A program made the translations under genes and the position numbers. Below, in pieces: positions 23,891 through 30,255 of a DNA stretch of 64,000 bases; position 1 is the first letter of the stretch; every line of letters begins with the position of its first letter. The stretch lies in NCBI GenBank assembly GCA_020725885.1, contig DYEA01000007.1, forward strand, positions 1 through 64,000, written 5' to 3'. The DNA is from Slackia sp. (lineage in GTDB: Bacteria > Actinomycetota > Coriobacteriia > Anaerosomatales > Anaerosomataceae). The notes below the pieces were generated by a model, which was given only the letters and a program-made list of their open reading frames with translations, was not told the origin of the DNA and did not search any database.

Positions 23891-23980
23891 GGTCGTCGAT
23901 CTACGTCCGCTGACGGGGCTTCCCCTCGATGGCAGGAACGGGTAGAATTGCCTGCGCTGCAGGTAGGTGGCAGCAGGTTT

Positions 23981-24055
23981 GGGCGATTAGCTCAGTGGGA
24001 GAGCGCTTCCTTCACACGGAAGAAGTCACAGGTTCAAATCCTGTATCGCCCACCA
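23981..24055 (+). tRNA. tRNA-Val (CAC)
   Basis: A 75-base cloverleaf with encoded CCA. The acceptor is GGGCGAT/ATCGCCC, the anticodon stem-loop CTTCC-TTCACAC-GGAAG has anticodon CAC, and the T arm is ACAGGTTCAAATCCTGT. A -10-like TAGAAT lies at 23943-23948. Confidence 0.95.
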
Positions 24056-24069
24056 TCAGCACTCATCTT

Positions 24070-24104
24070 GGAGGCGGCGTCTGCGACAGCGCAGGCGCCG
24101 CTCC
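24070..24104 (+). other. Strong hairpin after tRNA-Val
   Basis: A GC-rich stem (24070-24085 with 24090-24104, loop ACAG) with one bulged G and one G-T pair. No T run follows, so it may be a processing or Rho-related end of the tRNA transcript, or a structured leader of the next gene. Confidence 0.4.
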
Positions 24105-24163
24105 TGCATCTCGCCCCAGGAATCCGGTGTCCGCTCAACGGTGCGCATGAGGAGGGCCGTCCC

Positions 24164-24511
24164 GTGTTCGATGACGACTACAAGGAGTACCTGGACAGCC
24201 AAGATGACGCCACTGTGTGGGACCGCGAGGAGTACCTTGAAGTCCTCGGCATCGAGCCGGAAGACGATTGGGACGACGGCAGGAGCTCAGACGACGAACG
24301 GCTCGCTTGGTCGGTGCTGTACGACGACGACAACCTCCCTGAAGAGGACGAGTACGAGGACTTCGAGGACGACTACGAGGAGGAAGAGGGCGAGGGCGAA
24401 GAGGGTGAGAGCCCGGAGCCTTTAGACGAGGAGTACACGCCTCCAGTCCCAGTGTCGCCCGAGGTTCCGATGCCGTGCGATTTCCTCGACGAGGGCGAGA
24501 TCCCGTTCTGA
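24164..24511 (+). CDS. Very acidic small protein, unknown function
   Basis: A 115-residue protein not matched to any family I know. Asp and Glu make up close to half of it, with a run of mixed D/E/Y at about 55-85, then a Pro-rich tail. There are almost no basic residues and no membrane segment, so it is probably disordered and cytoplasmic. GTG 24164 is preceded by GAGGAGGG at 7 bases, which supports it as a real gene; longer in-frame starts would run through tRNA-Val. It might be a nucleic-acid mimic or a cation-binding protein; neither can be shown. Confidence 0.6.
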   Translation: MFDDDYKEYLDSQDDATVWDREEYLEVLGIEPEDDWDDGRSSDDERLAWSVLYDDDNLPEEDEYEDFEDDYEEEEGEGEEGESPEPLDEEYTPPVPVSPEVPMPCDFLDEGEIPF

Positions 24512-24566: not shown

Positions 24567-24584
24567 TTGTAACTATGTTTACAA
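24567..24584 (+). promoter_or_regulatory. Operator-like dyad 1 overlapping the nuo -35 box
   Basis: TTGTAACTATGTTTACAA is an 18-base imperfect palindrome with TTGTAA/TTACAA arms. It covers the predicted -35 box. In length and arms it resembles Rex sites (TTGTGAA-N4-TTCACAA), and Rex controls nuo in Streptomyces, but two positions per half-site differ. The regulator is inferred. Confidence 0.5.
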
Positions 24585-24607
24585 TGTCTTGGCGGCCGTG
24601 GTATAAG
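24578..24607 (+). promoter_or_regulatory. Promoter of the complex I operon
   Basis: TTTACA (24578-24583) and TATAAG (24602-24607) each match the sigma-70 consensus in five of six positions, 18 bases apart. TG and one base (24599-24601) precede the -10. The predicted start is near 24614, leaving a leader of about 125 bases before nuoA. Confidence 0.62.
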
Positions 24608-24612
24608 TCCGC

Positions 24613-24626
24613 CATCTGGCCAGATG
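24613..24626 (+). promoter_or_regulatory. Perfect palindrome at the nuo transcription start
   Basis: CATCTGGCCAGATG is a perfect 14-base palindrome exactly where transcription should begin. It may be a repressor site or may form a hairpin at the 5' end of the mRNA. Confidence 0.4.
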
Positions 24627-24685
24627 CTTCTGGACAAGCGTGCACTCTTCTTGCAGGACTTCGCGGTGGTCGCTGCGAATAGTGA

Positions 24686-24703
24686 TAGTAACGCTTGTTA
24701 CAG
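24686..24703 (+). promoter_or_regulatory. Operator-like dyad 2 in the nuo leader
   Basis: TAGTAACGCTTGTTACAG is an 18-base dyad with the same GTAAC-N4-[GT]TTAC core as dyad 1, 119 bases further on. Two sites of matching form suggest one regulator, perhaps with looping. Confidence 0.45.
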
Positions 24704-24740: not shown

Positions 24741-25103
24741 GTGGGAGGCAGGTCGGCGGTGCTGTTCGCAACGGGTCTCGTCGCAGGCCCCGCGCTGTTC
24801 CTCCTGATTTTGCTGACGTTGCAGCGGCTGCTCGCTCCACGACGGCCCGATCCAGTCAAAGAGAGCGCGTTCGAGTGCGGCATCCCGCAGGCGGACGTCC
24901 CGTGGAAACCGTTCAACGTGCGGTTCGCCGCCGTTGCCGCCCTGTTCGTCATCTTCGACGTCGAGGGCGTGCTGCTGTTCGCCGTGGCGCCTGCAGTGAA
25001 GGGCTCGCTTGCCGGCGTCCTCGAGGTCGGCGCGTTCGTGTCGATGCTCGCGATCGGCCTGCTGTACGCGTGGCGGAAGGGGCTGTTGTCGTGGCTGCGA
25101 TAG
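24741..25103 (+). CDS. nuoA: NADH-quinone oxidoreductase subunit A
   Basis: A 120-residue membrane subunit with three helices. The block FECGIPQADVPWKPFNVRF with its conserved Cys and the Asp-Glu pair in VIFDVEGVLLFA are NuoA signatures; the acidic residues lie in the second helix. GTG start with GAGG 5 bases upstream. First gene of a tightly packed eleven-gene operon running to 35779. Confidence 0.96.
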   Translation: MGGRSAVLFATGLVAGPALFLLILLTLQRLLAPRRPDPVKESAFECGIPQADVPWKPFNVRFAAVAALFVIFDVEGVLLFAVAPAVKGSLAGVLEVGAFVSMLAIGLLYAWRKGLLSWLR

Positions 25104-28225: not shown

Positions 28226-30255
28226 AGCGAGACAGACCGGTCGTTCCGGCGAGCGTCTCCGACGGGCCGACGGGAGACGGCCTCGTCGCTGGAGCGCGCT
28301 CGATCGCCAAGGGCTTCGCGTACACGGCTCGCGCGGGCGTGAGCAAACCGCTCACCGTGCGGTATCCGAAGGAGAAGCTCACCGTCAGCCCGCGGTGGCG
28401 CGGCCCGCTCGCGCTTCGCGGCGTGCTCGGGCGCGACGAGATCCCGCTGCTCCGTGCGCCGTCGTACGCCTACAACGAGACGATCGACGGCCTGTACCGC
28501 GCCGACCGGTTGCCGCCGTGCGTGGGCAGCTGCCCCGCGAACGTGGACGCGCGCGGTCAGGCGTACCTGATCGCCGACGACCGGGTGGTCGAGGCCTACG
28601 AGCTCGTCCGCGACCGCAACATCCTGCCCGGCGTGCTCGGGCGCATCTGCCACCACCCGTGCGAGTCGGCGTGCAAGCGGAACTTCTTCGACGAGCCGAT
28701 CGCCATCCGCCCGCTTCACCGCTTCGCGTTCGAGGAGTACCGCAAGGTGCGGCACGAGCGCATCTCGCCGTTCCCGCGGACGCAGGGCAAGAGCGTCTGC
28801 ATCGTGGGATCGGGGCCCTCGGGCCTCGCGGCGGCGTACGACCTGCTCAAGCTGGGCTACCGCGTCGTGATGTACGAGCGCGAACGGAAGCCAGGCGGCG
28901 CGCTCAACACCGGCGTCCCTGCGTACCGGCTGCCCCGCGAGGTGCTGTACGAGGAGATCGACGACATCGTCGGGCTCGGCCTGGAGCTCAACACCGGCGT
29001 CGAGGTGGGGAAGGACGTCACGCTTCCGTCGCTCATGCGCGAGCATGACGCGGTGCTGCTCGCGGTCGGCCTTCAGCAGAGCCGGATCCTGCCGATCCCG
29101 GGCACCGACGCCGAGGGCGTCGTCGGCGCGCTCGAGTTCCTGTGGTCTGCGAACTTCAAGCACGAAGCCGGCGTGCGCGGCAAGCGGGTCCTCGTGATCG
29201 GCGGCGGCAACGTCGCCGTGGACGTGGCGCGGTGCGCGCTGCGAGTGGGAGCGTCTGAGGTCCGCCTCGCGTGCCTCGAGTCCGAATCCGAGATGCCGTG
29301 CCACCCGTGGGAGATCGCGGAGGCGCTCGACGAAGGCGTCATCGCGATGTGCTCGCTCGGCCCGGAGGAGGTCCTGACGAAGCACGACACGGTCGTGGGG
29401 ATGCGCATGCGCTCGTGCCTGTCGGTCTTCGACGAGATGGGCCGGTTCGCTCCGAAGTTCGGCGACGAGACCACAGACGTGCCGACCGACGTCGTGGTGT
29501 TCGCGATCGGCCAGGCGCCCAAGATCGACACGATCGTGGCCGGGACGGAGCTCCTGGTGAGCGGGCGAGGCCAGTTGGTCGTCGACGGTACGCTGTTCAC
29601 CACGTCGGTTCCTGGCGTGTTCGCGTGCGGCGAGATCGTCACGGGTCCCGGGAGCGCGATCGGGTCGATCGCTACCGGACACGAGGCGGCCGTCTCGATC
29701 CACCGGTACCTGCAAGGGCTGCCGCTCGACGGCGACCGCGTCGCGCGCCCCGTGCCCGTCTACCAGAAGCACGCCCCGGCCGACACGCGCGGCATCGAGT
29801 CGAACCGCAGGCGCGCCGTCATGCCGATGGCCGATCCGGAGGAGCGGGCGAAGGACTTCCGCCAGGTCGAGCTCGGCCTCACGAGGCAGGAAGCGACCGC
29901 TGAGGCCATGCGGTGCTTGCGGTGCGAGTCGGAGGTGTGCGTCGGGTGCACCTTCTGCGCGAGGACCTGCCCGGACTACGCCATCAAAGTGGAGCGCGTC
30001 GACGAAGCTGGCGCCCGGTGCCTCACCCGCTACGACCTCGACCTGACGAAGTGCTGCTTCTGCGGCCTGTGCGCGGAGCAGTGCCCCACGAAGGCGCTCC
30101 ACCACACGGGACAGTACGAGCTGTCGTTCTGGCACAGGGACCTCATGGTGTTCGACAAGGGCGAGATGCTCCGTCCTCCGACGGGCACGCGCGCCACGGG
30201 GCGTGACGGCATCTCGCCGCCAGGATGCCCCGTTCCGCGAAGGGAGGACGGATGA
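28216..30255 (+). CDS. NuoI with an inserted GltD/NfnB-like FAD-NAD(P) oxidoreductase module
   Basis: A 679-residue fusion in the nuoI position. Residues 30-62 match the N-terminal NuoI segment that lies against the membrane arm (KPLTVRYPKEK at 44-54, then PRWRG). The next 500 residues are a GltD-like module: Cys102, Cys106, Cys145, Cys149 and Cys153 (Fer4_20-type iron-sulfur site), the FAD-binding GSGPSG at 198-203, the NAD(P)-binding GGGN at 329-332, and the closing RCLRC (Cys567, Cys570). NuoI then resumes with Cys575-578-581-585 and Cys613-616-619-623, two [4Fe-4S] motifs, and a NuoI-like tail to KGEMLRPP. The NADPH-type RR after the second nucleotide fold is not seen (ACLESESEMP), hinting at NADH. 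Likely role: NAD(P)H to FAD to clusters to NuoB, replacing NuoEFG. GTG 28216 or 28222. Confidence 0.88.
   Translation: MDVKRDRPVVPASVSDGPTGDGLVAGARSIAKGFAYTARAGVSKPLTVRYPKEKLTVSPRWRGPLALRGVLGRDEIPLLRAPSYAYNETIDGLYRADRLPPCVGSCPANVDARGQAYLIADDRVVEAYELVRDRNILPGVLGRICHHPCESACKRNFFDEPIAIRPLHRFAFEEYRKVRHERISPFPRTQGKSVCIVGSGPSGLAAAYDLLKLGYRVVMYERERKPGGALNTGVPAYRLPREVLYEEIDDIVGLGLELNTGVEVGKDVTLPSLMREHDAVLLAVGLQQSRILPIPGTDAEGVVGALEFLWSANFKHEAGVRGKRVLVIGGGNVAVDVARCALRVGASEVRLACLESESEMPCHPWEIAEALDEGVIAMCSLGPEEVLTKHDTVVGMRMRSCLSVFDEMGRFAPKFGDETTDVPTDVVVFAIGQAPKIDTIVAGTELLVSGRGQLVVDGTLFTTSVPGVFACGEIVTGPGSAIGSIATGHEAAVSIHRYLQGLPLDGDRVARPVPVYQKHAPADTRGIESNRRRAVMPMADPEERAKDFRQVELGLTRQEATAEAMRCLRCESEVCVGCTFCARTCPDYAIKVERVDEAGARCLTRYDLDLTKCCFCGLCAEQCPTKALHHTGQYELSFWHRDLMVFDKGEMLRPPTGTRATGRDGISPPGCPVPRREDG

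Follow-up and report, generated by a model that had tools for sequence, protein, structure and literature searches.

The window analysed, i.e., the whole stretch of 64,000 nucleotides, contains a complex I operon (nuo1) whose first gene is nuoA, and three dyad elements are located between an open reading frame ending at 24511 and nuoA, which starts at 24741. The upstream frame (23948-24511, forward strand) would encode a very acidic protein of 187 residues, lies directly upstream of the nuo1 promoter and has no Pfam match. The features of the locus are listed below, RexA being a Rex-family protein encoded elsewhere in the genome:

24567-24584, forward strand: O1 (site 1), predicted operator of RexA covering the -35 box of nuo1, from its conservation before nuoA
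24578-24583, forward strand: predicted -35 hexamer TTTACA within O1, assigned by eye (no call by the promoter scanner)
24602-24607, forward strand: predicted -10 hexamer TATAAG, 18 bp after the -35 hexamer; a -10-like hexamer is also found in relatives
24613-24626, no strand: palindrome CATCTGGCCAGATG, judged a chance feature as it is not conserved in the genus
24686-24703, forward strand: O2 (site 2), a further predicted operator of RexA, within the leader of nuo1, recurring in the last 110 bp before nuoA in relatives
24741-25103, forward strand: nuoA, which opens the nuo1 operon (Pfam PF00507)
28228-30255, forward strand: NuoI with a GltD/NfnB-like NAD(P)H module, from a predicted start codon (Pfam, NCBIfam and PDB matches)

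A preliminary description of this region had reported three dyads around the nuo promoter, and these were found exactly as described, TTGTAACTATGTTTACAA at 24567-24584, CATCTGGCCAGATG at 24613-24626 and TAGTAACGCTTGTTACAG at 24686-24703. The distance of 119 bases given between sites 1 and 2 is correct, and the GTAAC-N4-KTTAC core that they share has no other copy in the window and did not appear in 100 shuffles. The proposal that site 1 covers the -35 box is plausible by eye, although a consensus scanner called no promoter here; this scanner requires a T at the last -10 position and the box reads TATAAG. Arm pairing by itself is unremarkable: 190 N4 dyads of the window have 6 or more of their 7 arm bases paired, a value of 6 being obtained for site 1 and of 5 for site 2. 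Likewise, the core with one mismatch gave 5 and 5 matches in the whole genome against 8 and 7 for the reversed control. The outer ends TTGT and ACAA are both present in O1, and those of O2 are TAGT and ACAG here and TTGT and ACAC, or similar, in relatives. Arm pairing in one sequence being insufficient, the significance of sites 1 and 2 comes from their conservation.

This conservation was scored as the best fit, out of 12 positions, to TTGTnAC-N4/5-GTnACAA within up to 350 bp upstream of nuoA, for 32 upstream regions of the nuo1 type (30 loci and 2 further rows of the same NuoA match list). A score of at least 11 was reached in 29/32 upstream regions and in 0/3200 shuffles. The O1 form precedes nuoA in 26/32 loci, 16 of the 26 being identical over 18 bp to TTGTAACAATGTTTACAA; the automatic count was 27, from which one locus (L057) was set apart as site-2-like. 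A -10-like hexamer follows the O1-form site by 16-17 nt in 25 of 27 loci. In the region of O2, a site scoring at least 10/12 is present in the last 110 bp of 21/32 loci against 10/3200 shuffles, and subtracting three loci in which this site is O1 itself (L040, L041 and L054) and L057, where it is the only site, leaves a second site distinct from O1 in 17/32. Three loci are weak, L036 and L053 having no good site and L045 just 10/12. The nearest named relative by NuoA, “Coriobacteriaceae bacterium EMTCatB1” (82% identity), has a diverged promoter, and yet sites 1 and 2 have counterparts there, TTGTAACAATGTTTACAA and TTGTAACGCAAGTTACAC, whereas the middle palindrome is lost. None of the three relatives of the same genus has this palindrome at its place, and perfect 14-bp palindromes number 14 in the window for 8.8 expected. 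Hence, two of the three dyads stand as conserved elements, and the middle palindrome was ruled out as a start-site element. The spacer of O1, AATG or TATG, is nearly invariant over the order, and the spacers of rexA operators vary. This order of the Coriobacteriia is probably Anaerosomatales (OPB41); EMTCatB1 is listed by NCBI under Coriobacteriales.

The likeness of site 1 to Rex sites had been pointed out in the preliminary description, and this reading gains support from the rest of the genome (1.83 Mb, 17 contigs), in which Rex genes are present and the motif recurs at nuo2 and rexA, with an operator shifted from the published form. Three Rex-family genes were found, so that the objection of an absent Rex fails: rexA is located on contig C10, and rexB and rexC on contig C17 (L010, 3330-3977 and 14645-15373). 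RexA carries the Rex DNA-binding domain PF06971 and the NAD-binding domain PF02629, both over their curated cut-offs, and is similar along most of its length to the solved Rex proteins of T. aquaticus/T. thermophilus and T. maritima (E 3e-44 to 8e-41). RexA and RexB also pass the cut-off of NCBIfam Rex models, and RexC lies just under the subfamily cut-off with 119.9 vs. 126. A site was found at the promoter of rexA itself, where it reads TTGTGAC-N5-GTAACAA and spans the predicted -10 box (by eye), which is the position of a repressor. For all 37 rexA-type matches among 41 genomes, the promoter scored 10/12 or more in 35, of which 33 reached 11/12 or more, compared with 22/3700 and 0/3700 shuffles, respectively. 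The promoters of rexB and rexC were rejected as owners of the motif, their best scores being 6-8/12 and 7-9/12 (11 loci each) and none reaching 10/12. In RexC, GTARM stands in place of the GAGNLG of RexA; given this motif and its score below the Rex cut-off, RexC may have lost NADH sensing. A TCGTTAC half-site was seen in several rexC upstream regions (L211-L213, L217 and, in the genome itself, L010 at about 14630).

The recurrence of the motif before other respiratory genes was also observed, at a second complex I operon (nuo2, on contig C8) in addition to rexA. In the host genome, the relaxed motif TTGTNACN{4,6}NTNACA matches three places, namely O1 of nuo1, nuo2 and rexA, and its reversed pattern matches none; O2 falls outside it. 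Because about one match is expected by chance in the genome (a rough estimate from base composition), the evidence lies in the identity of the three places and not in their count. For nuo2, 21 upstream regions were taken out of 37 weaker NuoA rows, L223, L231 (from G038, with a weaker NuoA match and a best score of 8/12) and L232 being left outside the counts. Scores of at least 10/12 were obtained in 11/21 and of at least 9/12 in 14/21, vs. 18/2100 and 182/2100 shuffles, and 7/21 loci scored below 9. The exact motif TTGTAACN{4,5}GTTAC is present in 40/41 genomes (the host and 40 relatives), its reversed control in 0/41.

At the level of the class (296 genomes), the exact motif was found in 64/69 genomes of the order and in 30/227 others, vs. 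1/69 and 44/227 for the reversed control (counted from the listing); outside the order, the motif is no commoner than its control. A Rex-domain match at E 1.8e-14 or better exists in 66/69 genomes of the order, and outside it a match at E 0.001 or better exists in 32/227, just 2 of which are over the cut-off (by subtraction). Five genomes of the order lack the exact motif: G079 has no Rex either, G113 and G135 have a RexB-like match alone, and G111 and G038 possess RexA with a poor 8/12 site. Against a strict link, the motif is present without any Rex match, RexA-type included, in G021 (70% complete) and without a Rex match in G140 (73% complete), and G003, G027 and G039 (92, 86 and 73% complete) have motif and Rex but no RexA-type match.

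The published Rex consensus is TTGTGAA-N4-TTCACAA, according to PMC5355995 and PMC3441419, the latter citing Ravcheev et al. for the general form. The outer arms and the 18-bp length of O1 are the same, and the inner bases differ. At position 5, the published G is mostly an A here, and the published A of position 7 is a C. This would fit a lineage-specific operator, TTGTAAC-N4/5-GTTACAA. As a genome-wide marker the published consensus was discarded, little excess being observed with up to 3 mismatches (8 places vs. 5 for the reversed control); O1, with three mismatches, is among these matches and O2 is not. Over the nuo1, rexA and nuo2 promoters, its mean best score was 2.0 to 2.3 of 14 lower than that of TTGTAAC-N4-GTTACAA. 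The A at position 5 is not obligatory, as three rexA left halves of the same genus read TTGTGAC or TTGTTAC. In T. maritima Rex bound to DNA (PDB 7WB3; PMC8836258), Arg48 is the residue that reads the first G, and the second G and the A that follows it are in contact with Lys49. This protein can be aligned with RexA, which retains Arg48 as well as the other half of the recognition helix and has an Arg, residue 62 of RexA, in place of Lys49, and the G lying under Lys49 is an A in most sites here; the base under Arg48 is unchanged. According to this alignment, the two positions are Arg-Arg in 37/37 RexA and Arg-Lys in 11/11 RexB. The change from Lys to Arg and the base change occurred in one clade and hence count as one event.

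We therefore estimate, with a probability of roughly 0.85, that sites 1 and 2 serve as operators for a repressor of the Rex family that senses NADH/NAD+, most probably RexA. What sequence comparison contributes to this reading is the sites themselves, the way they are conserved and placed, and the fact that they recur at nuo2 and rexA and go together with Rex in the order; from these, we infer that RexA and not a paralogue binds them, that NADH is the signal, that the outcome is repression and that O2 has a role. Mechanistically, this would most likely amount to classic Rex repression. At low NADH, the repressor dimer, with NAD+, would occupy the TTGTAAC-N4/5-GTTACAA sites. Bound at O1, over the -35 box of nuo1, it would exclude RNA polymerase, and O2 in the transcribed leader could act as a roadblock or as a second contact. 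A rise in NADH would then release the repressor and allow the transcription of nuo1, nuo2 and rexA. This is in line with S. avermitilis, in which Rex sites have been proven to lie over the promoters of nuoA1 and of rex (PMC5355995), the nuoA1 site including the -35 box, as well as with its sites downstream of the start, at cydA1 and wblE, that also repress and may serve as a precedent for O2. The nuoA1-N1/rex system described there shares with the present one a Rex repressor, complex I and rex as targets, and an 18-bp operator of the TTGT...ACAA type. It differs by its operator, TTGTGAA-N4-TTCACAA instead of TTGTAAC-N4/5-GTTACAA with two spacings, and the present host has Rex in three paralogues, complex I in two operons and a NuoI that contains a GltD-like module. 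That Rex represses nuo is thus already known from Streptomyces, and the novelty is the operator shift together with the unusual complex I. In searches limited to open-licence papers, and among the papers cited here, neither a Rex regulon nor a TTGTAAC-N4/5-GTTACAA operator was found described for this group.

The operators might instead belong to RexC, or be common to the Rex paralogues and not RexA's own. RexC also has Arg-Arg at both base-reading positions and could hence share the operator, so that it is chiefly the rexA promoter that speaks for RexA. Indeed, the contrast between promoters is marked (7-9/12 for rexC and 6-8/12 for rexB, at 11 loci each, vs. at least 10 in 35/37 for rexA), and the two genomes with a RexB-like match alone are without the exact motif, making this alternative improbable. 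Slightly less probable still is that O1 is the site of an activator of the CRP/FNR type (TGTNA-N6-TNACA geometry) in a class-II-like place, its likeness to Rex sites being coincidental or secondary. With its centre some 38 bases upstream of the predicted start at about 24614 (by eye), O1 forms a perfect TTGTAA-N6-TTACAA dyad whose spacer is almost frozen, and two genes of the genome encode an HTH_Crp_2 domain over the cut-off. However, TTGTNA-N6-TNACAA, the form of O1, occurs just once in the genome, a good -35 box lies inside O1, and the rexA and nuo2 sites stand between -35 and -10 or on -10 (by eye), which is a poor place for an activator. The overlap with the -35 box accounts for the conservation of the right arm of O1, and of that arm alone. 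A second factor reading O1 besides the Rex repressor, such as one of the two CRP/FNR-like proteins, may be involved and would explain the frozen spacer. Finally, the dyads might have arisen by chance in an A+T-rich promoter, as the 190 dyads of similar arm pairing and a one-mismatch core no commoner than its control might suggest; this holds for the middle palindrome but is most improbable for sites 1 and 2, being contradicted by their conservation across the order and by the shuffled and reversed controls.

The preliminary description had seen in Rex control a redox switch on an NADH-consuming complex. The Rex-type sites at nuo agree with the switch, whereas NADH consumption was an assumption, no NuoEFG domains having been seen by Pfam among the nuo1 genes scanned. 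For two cultivated Anaerosomatales, PMC9686372 reports a complex I without NuoEFG and suggests donors besides NADH, e.g., ferredoxin; it also places a Rex-type gene of one of the two in a multihaem cytochrome cluster. In nuo1, the gene at 28228-30255, between nuoH and nuoJ, encodes in order a NuoI-like start (by eye), Fer4_20 and Pyr_redox_2, and a NuoI-like 4Fe-4S part. NuoI thus appears to be split by an inserted GltD/NfnB-like flavoprotein module, and the fusion is kept in 10/10 nuo1 loci fetched (65-91% identity). This module could be the own NAD(P)H entry of a complex I devoid of NuoEFG; the fusion makes an NAD(P)H input plausible and, with it, gives a redox switch on nuo1 a purpose.

A broader reading is put forward tentatively, the odds being somewhat against it: the Rex code may have been rewritten in this order, RexA having changed Lys to Arg, its operators having moved to TTGTAAC-N4/5-GTTACAA with two spacings, the circuit having separated from RexB, which kept the old residue, and the rewired switch governing a complex I in which a GltD-like module built into NuoI replaces the usual NADH-input arm. 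The fact that RexC shares the Arg weakens this proposal. The case would nonetheless offer a natural example, in a repressor family with solved structures, of one residue change accompanying one change of operator base with a paralogue keeping the old residue. It also ties the puzzle of complex I without NuoEFG, as raised in PMC9686372, to a predicted switch that senses NADH and to an NAD(P)H module fused into the complex.

Besides, the motif provides a testable redox regulon for a little-studied and mostly uncultured order. Its survey was based on 60 places taken as neither nuo nor rex; five listed places were omitted (one on G025:C2, two in G039 and two in G033), as were clusters presumed to be in a wrong frame (low third-position G+C or opposite another cluster), and target counts are hence lower bounds. 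The largest cluster comprises at least 21 loci before short-chain dehydrogenases. It is accompanied by formate-dehydrogenase-like proteins with a Tat signal (at least 8 loci), [NiFe]-hydrogenase small subunits (at least 6, L189 being doubtful), Fer4_22 iron-sulphur proteins (at least 3) and b-type cytochromes (at least 3). Three members of the short-chain dehydrogenase cluster and one member of each other cluster were scanned against Pfam. Targets without an evident redox role were observed as well, namely YCF48-like proteins (at least 2 loci clustered, one scanned) and TPR proteins.
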